Assembly (NCBI RefSeq): GCF_009831455.1
Contig: NZ_WOWO01000001.1
Location: 372,001-436,000, forward strand
Length of the DNA stretch: 64,000 nt
Direction of reading: 5' to 3'
Origin: Salinirussus salinus
GTDB taxonomy: Archaea > Halobacteriota > Halobacteria > Halobacteriales > Haloarculaceae
Shown here one piece after another: positions 8,619 through 43,965 of this stretch (within the stretch, counting starts at the first letter, position 1; the number at the start of each line of letters is the position of its first letter). A program made the translations under genes and the position numbers. The notes beneath the pieces were generated by a model. That model was given only the letters and a program-made list of their open reading frames with translations, was not told the DNA's origin and did no database searches.

Positions 8619-8968
8619 TCGCCGTTGAGCCAGCAGGCTGATACAGGGCGTCGCGGGGCGCGAGCGGAGCGAGCGCGAGGTTCGCGCGTGAGAATCCGCG
8701 TTGGCCCACTACCACCTTTTTCTGCGTCGGGTTTCCTCGCGACCCTCCGGCTCGCTGCGGAACCACTCCTTGAAAAACGTGGGCCAAAAAGGCCGCTCGC
8801 GCCGGCGGCGCGAGCGGGGTCCTCGTGAGGGGACCGAACGAGAGCTCGTCAGAGCCTCGCTCTGACGGCGAACCGCGCGCCGCAGGCGCGCGGATGCTCA
8901 CCACAAACACCAGACACTCTCCGACGAGAGCGTTCTGCGGCCGCTGGACCGACAGACTGCCCGGTCGG
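8619..8968. other. GC-rich intergenic region with hairpin cluster
   Basis: No gene is credible in this 350-base stretch between the integrase and the EEP-fold gene. It contains a 9-bp inverted pair TTGGCCCAC (8701-8709) and GTGGGCCAA (8779-8787) and three perfect hairpins: 11 bp at 8793-8817, 8 bp at 8848-8866 and 9 bp at 8873-8893. The text around the TTGGCCCAC pair resembles a repeat I remember from other haloarchaeal intergenic regions. It may mark the edge of the mobile segment. Confidence 0.5.
8793..8893. repeat. Three consecutive perfect hairpins
   Basis: Arms: CCGCTCGCGCC/GGCGCGAGCGG with loop GGC (8793-8817); GTCAGAGC/GCTCTGAC with loop CTC (8848-8866); CCGCGCGCC/GGCGCGCGG with loop GCA (8873-8893). 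They follow the 3' end of the EEP-fold gene (minus strand) and precede the 5' end of the integrase gene, so one or more may act as a terminator for the former. Confidence 0.55.
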
Positions 8969-42763: not shown

Positions 42764-43189
42764 ATGCTCACACCTGACATCCGCGAACTGACCACCAAAC
42801 AAGAGTCCCGCGAAGCCTTCCCGGTCATGCGCCAGCTTCGGGACCACCTGACCGAGTCGGAGTACCTCGACTACCTCGCTGAGATGCGCGAGGAGGGGTA
42901 TCACCTGTTCGGGCTGTACGACGACGGGCTGGTCACCGTCGCGGGCGTGGCGCTCCGGACGAACTTCTACAACGGCCGGCACCTGTTCGTCTACGACCTG
43001 GTCACCCGCGAGTCCCGCCGCTCGGAGGGCCACGGCGCGGCGATGATGGAATTTCTGGACGAGTGGGCCGAAGAACGGGGCTGTGAGAGCATCACCCTGG
43101 AGTCGGGGCTCTGGCGCGAGGACGCCCATCGGTTCTACGAGGACCTGGACATGGAGAAGTTCTGCTATACATTTAAGAAGGAGTTCTAG
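42764..43189 (+). CDS. GNAT family N-acetyltransferase
   Basis: The 141-residue protein has the GNAT fold order: MRQLRDHLTESEYLDYLAEM, GYHLFGLYDDGLVTVAGVALR, YDLVTRESRRSEGHGAAMMEFLDEWAEERG (acetyl-CoA loop, slightly altered from Q/RxxGxG/A) and LWREDAHRFYEDLDMEK. Substrate not predictable. It follows the pilin gene by 124 bp on the same strand. A TATA-like AGTTTTAC stretch lies about 30 bp upstream. Confidence 0.85.
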   Translation: MLTPDIRELTTKQESREAFPVMRQLRDHLTESEYLDYLAEMREEGYHLFGLYDDGLVTVAGVALRTNFYNGRHLFVYDLVTRESRRSEGHGAAMMEFLDEWAEERGCESITLESGLWREDAHRFYEDLDMEKFCYTFKKEF

Positions 43190-43232: not shown

Positions 43233-43330
43233 GAAAGCCCCCGCGCTGTCGGCGGCTGCGACTCGCTGCGCTCCAGTAGGTGCTTGCGTCGTCTCGCTCG
43301 CCGACAGCGCGGCCCCTTTCATTCCCACCC
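43233..43330 (-). repeat. Structured repeat element, copy 1
   Basis: Read on the minus strand: GAAAGGGGCC, arm GCGCTGTCGGCG (rc of 43299-43310), core with CGACGCAAGCACC and GAGCGCAGCGAG, second arm CGCCGACAGCGC (rc of 43243-43254), closing GGGGGCTTTC. The twelve-base arms are perfectly complementary. The conserved blocks are shared with copy 2, but the arms are different in sequence. Confidence 0.8.
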
Positions 43331-43453
43331 GGCGCCACACCCCTCCCCAGCCGATTCGCTCCCTCTCTGCGGTCGGTCGCTCATCCCTCGCACAGTATTG
43401 TCGCGGCACAAGGCCGCGACAGCGCGCGCCACATACTTAACATTCCACACGGG

Positions 43454-43567
43454 CGGGACTGAAAGGGGCCGTCGCGCTCCGGGAGCCCCGGCGACGCAAG
43501 CACCACAACGAGCGTAGCGAGTGAGGAGCGCAGCGAGCCGCGGGACCGGAGCGCGACGGGGGCTTTC
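43454..43567 (+). repeat. Structured repeat element, copy 2
   Basis: Read on the plus strand: GGGACT-GAAAGGGGCC (to 43470), arm GTCGCGCTCCGG (43471-43482), core with CGACGCAAGCACC (43492-43504) and GAGCGCAGCGAG (about 43526-43537), second arm CCGGAGCGCGAC (43546-43557), closing GGGGGCTTTC (43558-43567). Arms are perfectly complementary. A box resembling TATA (ACATACTTAAC) lies about 20 bp before the element. Confidence 0.8.
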
Positions 43568-43677: not shown

Positions 43678-43965
43678 TCACTCATCACTATCGCGTGGGG
43701 TGTCACCGAGACCGTAGTCGGCCTTCACATCGTCGCTACCGTGGGTGCGTCCTTCACGGATCTCCGCTTCGCTGGTGAGCATCGCCCTCAGGTCTGCACG
43801 GTTAAATTCGGGGTGTTTGAGCGCATCTCGAAGGACAAATCGGATGAACTCGCTTCGACTGTTGAATCCCTGTTCTTCCCACGTCGCGTCGATATCCTCC
43901 AGAAACGTCTCGGTCATCCGGATATTTACTGTCGTCTTGTCGGGTGGGGACTCCGCTTCTGTCAT
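43678..43965 (-). CDS. Ribbon-helix-helix regulator, antitoxin-like
   Basis: The 95-residue protein has a ribbon-helix-helix core: TTVNIRMTETFLEDIDATWEEQGFNSRSEFIRFVLRDAL (about residues 11-49), as in CopG/ParD-type DNA-binding proteins and antitoxins. A polar C-terminal tail follows. No toxin gene is next to it. ATG 43963-43965 has a TATA-like box at 43986-43994. It may regulate its own promoter or the nearby elements. Confidence 0.75.
   Translation of the reverse strand: MTEAESPPDKTTVNIRMTETFLEDIDATWEEQGFNSRSEFIRFVLRDALKHPEFNRADLRAMLTSEAEIREGRTHGSDDVKADYGLGDTPRDSDE

Follow-up and report, generated by a model that had tools for sequence, protein, structure and literature searches.

The gap between a GNAT gene and a ribbon-helix-helix (RHH) gene of Salinirussus salinus holds two inverted copies of a hairpin-forming element, and the question raised by this locus is what kind of element they belong to. 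The initial annotation of the window (the whole stretch of 64,000 nucleotides that was analysed) had described two inverted copies with shared ends and core, left open the choice between a structured RNA and a mobile hairpin family, and knew of no named family to which they could be assigned. The positions of the copies, their mutual inversion and the shared strings quoted were all verified in the sequence, and the gene coordinates confirmed their place between the two genes, which converge on the pair (Table 1).

The observation is thus real, and it was understated. In the hairpin element, H, a 3 × 3 GGG/GGG internal loop, absent from the initial annotation, separates the outer GAAAG/CTTTC stem from a variable stem, P2. 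The arms of P2 do differ between the copies and are perfectly complementary within each, as claimed, the stem being 14 bp long when the constant CC/GG is counted rather than the 12 bp given. Two other features had been overlooked: an 11-nt conserved leader, CGGGYGGGACT, 5′ of each hairpin, and a further structured module, U, upstream of copy 1. The two window copies adopt one and the same interrupted hairpin, and each folds far more stably than dinucleotide shuffles, with z scores of −5.3 and −5.9 for RNA and of −3.8 and −5.8 for DNA. A covariance model of H built from 13 other copies found both copies in the window, where the next best match had an E-value of 0.19.

Table 1 Features of the locus, in positions of the window
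Feature	Positions	Strand	Length or sequence	Basis or remark
GNAT gene flanking the pair	42764-43189	plus
Copy 1, hairpin element H	43233-43320	minus	88 nt	covariance model, E 2e-13 in the window
Layout of copy 1			GAAAG / GGG-GGG loop / 14-bp variable stem / conserved core GACGCAAGCACC..GGAGCGCAGCGAG / CTTTC
Copy 1, variable stem P2, 3′ arm	43241-43254	minus	CGCCGACAGCGCGG	fold
Copy 1, variable stem P2, 5′ arm	43299-43312	minus	CCGCGCTGTCGGCG	fold
Conserved leader directly 5′ of copy 1	43321-43331	minus	CGGGTGGGAAT
U module upstream of copy 1	43332-43432	minus	GTGGCGCGCGC..GTCGCGGC..GCCGCGAC..GTGCGAGGGATGAGCGA..GAATCGGCTGGGGAGGGGTGTGGC
Conserved leader directly 5′ of copy 2	43450-43460	plus	CGGGCGGGACT
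Copy 2, hairpin element H	43461-43567	plus	107 nt	covariance model, E 2e-21 in the window
Copy 2, variable stem P2, 5′ arm	43469-43482	plus	CCGTCGCGCTCCGG	fold
Copy 2, extra apical hairpin			CGAGCGTAGCGAG	tandem GA and GNA triloop
Copy 2, variable stem P2, 3′ arm	43546-43559	plus	CCGGAGCGCGACGG	fold
RHH gene flanking the pair	43678-43965	minus

A search of haloarchaeal genomes with this model, a kind of search that had been proposed as a check, revealed a large family: there were 42 matches in the S. salinus genome itself and H was matched in 41 of 58 relatives. The two copies are members of a Halobacteria-wide family of mosaic intergenic repeats. In a phylum-wide sample, among the genomes listed, H was found in 45 of the 53 from the same order and in none of those from the remainder of the phylum. 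The copy number ranges from 0 to 87 across related genomes, and the named genera that carry H include Haloarcula, Halosimplex, Halorussus, Halobaculum, Natronococcus, Natrinema, Halopiger and Halonotius. With a loose pattern, 24 sites were located in the S. salinus genome, 12 on each strand (the reversed control gave one), and 33 of the 58 relatives had sites as well; most of its matches outside Halobacteria lacked the core and were taken as chance. No match to H was seen in phage records. The family is uncatalogued: Rfam 15 has no covariance-model match near the element, even at a relaxed E-value, and no name for it was found in the literature searched, which included a search for the sequence text, so to that extent the earlier statement that there is no named family holds.

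The claim that the stem sequence is free to change while pairing is kept was examined across 124 aligned copies, in an independent genus (g25) and at orthologous sites, and it was borne out in all three. In the 124-copy alignment, which was fitted to the model and so is biased towards structure, though the fold was first seen in unfitted single-sequence folds, pairing occurs in 96.5% of cells and both-sided changes are found at 32 of the 35 pairs. The statistical test of covariation that had been suggested gave a score of 0.552, compared with 0.144 for shuffles and at most 0.063 for slid versions, a signal to which intramolecular palindrome correction could add. Further copies with non-complementary arms, which had been named as grounds for dropping the claim, did not turn up. 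In genus g25 the outer stem covaries too, CGAAG/CTTCG or CAAAG/CTTTG replacing GAAAG/CTTTC.

The H unit is 88-111 nt long, and its stems covary freely while its internal loops are the best conserved part. These loops are purine-rich and invariant or nearly so (GGG/GGG, GAA/GA, GA/A, AA/GCA, A/A, tandem GA and the GNA triloop). The apical tips are mostly GNA-type triloops, which are particularly stable in DNA, and very few are GNRA tetraloops. Wobble pairs are scarce (2.75% of cells), and the mismatches are asymmetric: 115 G.T against 24 A.C in the 124-copy family (18 against 4 pairs), and 42 against 9 in the separate replicate, genus g25. As copies lie equally on both strands of the S. salinus genome (12 and 12), the asymmetry belongs to the element and not to the replication strand, and the excess of G.T over A.C means that the fold maintained is that of the GAAAGGGG strand. 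Supported covariation and strand-specific wobble, the marks of a structured noncoding RNA, are thus both present in H.

The family is a mosaic. A leader, CGGGYGGGACT/AAT, precedes nearly all of the H copies listed, many of which stand head-to-head around a spacer of 38-46 nt. In others, such as copy 1, U lies on the 5′ side and the head-to-head units are grouped around it; U precedes some copies of H and not all. U has stems of its own and the conserved strings GCGAGGGA and GGCTGGGGAGG (in the window and at loci L266-L331); in 16 copies from genus g25, stems A2, A3 and B covary beyond all 500 shuffles, and stem A1 scarcely varies. Paired composites carry inverted outer ends, GAACAGCNNGAAAGCCCC, which single H copies lack. 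Two other arrangements were noted. At G022:C1 801200-801441 and 919838-920075 the H pairs are tail-to-tail with spacers of about 30 nt, the reverse of the usual head-to-head order, and downstream of the hairpin at L267 (G036:C1 near 738400-739075) a unit of about 51 bp, GTGGTTTCTGTCGGAACAGTGACTGCGTGTAGCCGAGCGGCTGGGGCTTCG, which duplicates the 3′ end of H, recurs in tandem.

Orthologous sites were then compared. At L286/L277, a site shared by two congeneric species, the composite has been inverted in place: once it is turned, 300 of 342 positions agree, and the agreement is much lower when it is read in the same direction as the flanks. Inversion in place was also found at L254/L261 and at L234/L273, where half of the composite has been lost. 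Within the H units of L286/L277 only 3 of the 212 positions differ, none of them paired (a base of a triloop and two at the 1x1 mismatch), compared with 8 of 46 in the spacer and 11-13.5% in the flanks. The intact H of L254/L261, read by hand, has two changes, one unpaired and one from G.T to G-C. No pair-breaking substitution was found in the two orthologous composites checked, a pattern of purifying selection that recent gene conversion could mimic there. Compensatory changes were seen at L234/L273 (GACGCG/CGCGTC to GACCCG/CGGGTC) and, in P1, at L308/L316 (CGAAG/CTTCG and CAAAG/CTTTG). A tandem 15-bp repeat, GGTCGTGGAGTTGGC, directly past the H of L234 (G031:C1 near 2437940-2438040) is largely missing from the ortholog in G013.

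At other orthologous sites the entire stem has been exchanged and the flanks are unchanged, and recent duplicates within a genome have the leader and H in common and little else. The cassettes have therefore been exchanged between sites. No target-site duplication was evident around the duplicates. A clean empty site was not found in two genus comparisons, in which the flanks were located with deletions or another gene between them, so that the mobility of H is deduced solely from its copy number and its duplicates.

H is intergenic. In 111 of 112 H clusters there was no overlap with genes predicted by a purpose-made caller validated on the window, and the tandem, divergent and convergent gaps are occupied roughly in proportion to their occurrence. 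The next gene is about 100 nt away on the CTTTC side and farther off on the GAAAG side. Orientation relative to the neighbouring genes is close to random (upstream, 21 the same and 22 opposite; downstream, 17 and 25), and a UTR element or terminator was rejected for this lack of preference. No TATA-like word was found at a fixed distance from U, and no TATA-like sequence in the 38-46 nt spacers of head-to-head pairs; a promoter belonging to U or H was rejected as no fixed TATA position exists. The random orientation and the lack of a fixed TATA distance therefore disfavour a UTR element or a stand-alone RNA, conceivable as either is.

In haloarchaeal plasmids a single H, whether full, variant or truncated, lies about 450-650 bp upstream of a gene whose product (about 290-300 aa, on 168 plasmid records) has a C-terminal RPA-like OB fold. 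The noncoding DNA upstream of this gene is conserved and structured over about 500 bp and usually includes one H (L200-L205, L243, L338-L347), and the plasmid H adjoins a conserved block, CCCGGAATGGTCGGTCGCGAGCGACGCGGAGGGCGG. By eye and with the model, H or a remnant was found at this locus in 15 of the 17 plasmids examined, the exceptions being pHalomarina BND7 and Haloprofundus unnamed2; the plasmids were partly selected by their H match, so that 7 of the 17 do not count as independent support for the association. In the orthologous pair L252/L257 (G002 and G021) the apex of one H has gained several extra perfect hairpins on an unchanged outer stem, much like the variants on pNRC100 and other plasmids.

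Several known repeats resemble H in part. The BOX and ERIC-type repeats of bacteria are modular structured intergenic elements of about 100-300 bp, present in around a hundred copies, with modules variously combined; they belong to another domain of life and differ in sequence, and to our knowledge neither covariation of stems around fixed loops as in H nor inversion of composites in place is known for them. The REP/BIME repeats of Proteobacteria (REPINs with RAYT transposases) are, like H, multi-copy extragenic palindromes in alternating orientation with defined motifs between the palindromes: H has 42 matches in the S. salinus genome, lies clear of coding sequence in all but one of the 112 clusters, and forms head-to-head pairs joined by spacers or accompanied by U. 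Variable complementary stem residues and G-T pairs are also reported for REP/BIME (PMC2817692, PMC3733652). They differ in being 20-40 bp long, in having a terminal GTAG/GGAG or CGTC tag and in having a cognate Y1 transposase, whereas H, with its greater length, has GAAAG/CTTTC ends (or their g25 counterparts) and a conserved multi-loop core. As a search for PF01797 (Y1 transposase) gave no match in the S. salinus genome and did give matches in control genomes, and as length and tag fail too, a RAYT-driven REP was rejected. In kind, H probably works like BIME or BOX repeats.

Integron attC sites are likewise imperfect, strand-specific hairpins in which the bulges are conserved and the apex varies. 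Their core, GTTRRRY/RYYYAAC, does not occur in H, which has GAAAG/CTTTC ends in the aligned copies, and no gene cassettes were seen between H copies. PATEs and the subterminal palindromes of IS200-IS605 elements are haloarchaeal noncoding hairpin repeats whose single-stranded DNA hairpins are recognised by Y1 transposases; PATEs have no inverted ends and derive from IS605-type transposons, a relation not found for H as far as tested. The nearest haloarchaeal precedent is provided by the small mobile repeats (SMRs) and "SwitchRepeats" of Haloquadratum, which, compared by description only, may be related to H. SMR-A of Haloquadratum walsbyi is a noncoding repeat of about 110 bp with inverted ends; it reaches 54 copies, and its mobilisation is unexplained. 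The copies are >95% identical and have PATEs and IS605-type elements as their targets, and their description includes no structural covariation (PMC3119063). "SwitchRepeats", in which the same or another repeat occupies the same position in opposite orientation (PMC3119063), resemble the inversion in place seen at orthologous H sites.

We lean towards reading H as a structured intergenic DNA repeat of the BIME/BOX kind, spread by recombination and kept as a strand-specific hairpin. Recombination between the conserved ends would both spread the copies and homogenise them. H would be kept for acting as a hairpin of the GAAAGGGG strand, most probably as DNA at times when that strand is single, in replication, recombination or transfer. 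A protein may bind or process it, as BIME/REP or BOX serve as protein-binding repeats. DNA is preferred to RNA because of the freedom from gene overlap, the random orientation, the lack of a fixed TATA, the low wobble and the GNA triloops. Judged from sequence, the strict upkeep of H suggests that it does something. A larger proposal is offered tentatively: U plus H (about 300 nt) may represent a new Halobacteria-wide class of large structured element. Purifying selection would then act on its one-strand fold at dozens of sites in the chromosome and at the fixed plasmid site next to the OB-fold (RPA-like) gene, and the element would either serve replication, recombination or transfer as a hairpin signal in single-stranded DNA or be an abundant RNA that has gone unrecognised. 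The main rival to the DNA reading, in which H alone or together with U is transcribed as a structured noncoding RNA, free-standing or in UTRs, with its fold under selection, seems somewhat unlikely. Conserved loops within a covarying multi-stem architecture are the usual mark of such an RNA; covariation is seen across H and, in U, in stems A2, A3 and B, alongside conserved single-stranded blocks; one strand accepts G.T about five times as often as A.C, as RNA would give; and the substitutions at L286/L277 fall only in loops. These points have to be set against the near-random orientation to both neighbouring genes, head-to-head spacers devoid of TATA-like sequence, TATA-like words at no fixed distance before U, entire composites that flip in place, a copy number between 0 and 87 in related genomes and the lack of an Rfam match.

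Of the two possibilities in the initial annotation, a free-standing RNA is disfavoured by the lack of a fixed promoter and of an orientation preference, and a repeat family fits in so far as copies duplicate, swap and invert. A decaying transposon does not fit, since H is conserved more strictly than its surroundings. It is improbable that H consists of remnants of non-autonomous transposons (MITE or SMR-like) that have inverted ends, are moved in trans and play no part for the host, even if there are dozens of copies, near-identical recent duplicates with only the element in common, inverted outer ends and a likeness to the Haloquadratum SMRs (PMC3119063). Old orthologous stems are still complementary, H stems differ almost completely where SMRs are >95% identical within a type (PMC3119063), and neither a Y1 transposase in the S. 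salinus genome nor a target duplication or clean empty site was found. The covariation might also be mutational, template switching within the hairpin at replication copying one arm from the other and so keeping the palindromes perfect. The very few wobble pairs and the nested extra hairpins in the apical regions of L252/L257 are in keeping with this, which we nevertheless regard as highly improbable: it predicts unconserved internal loops and no orientation-tied asymmetry of G.T and A.C, the reverse of what was observed, and stems at orthologous sites are unchanged where spacers have changed.

A strongly covarying element is thus present in most of the haloarchaeal genomes sampled, with up to 87 copies in one, and a covariance model is at hand for annotating haloarchaeal intergenic DNA. 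H offers markers that flip and swap in place. It also points to a protein or process that would read the hairpin of one defined strand, and the plasmid locus beside the OB-fold gene makes such a process testable. Part of the GAGCGNAGCGAG-rich text of intergenic DNA is accounted for by H. Isolated words of this kind, with the same mini-hairpin text as the apex of H, also occur outside any H, at positions 8662 and 49098 of the window.
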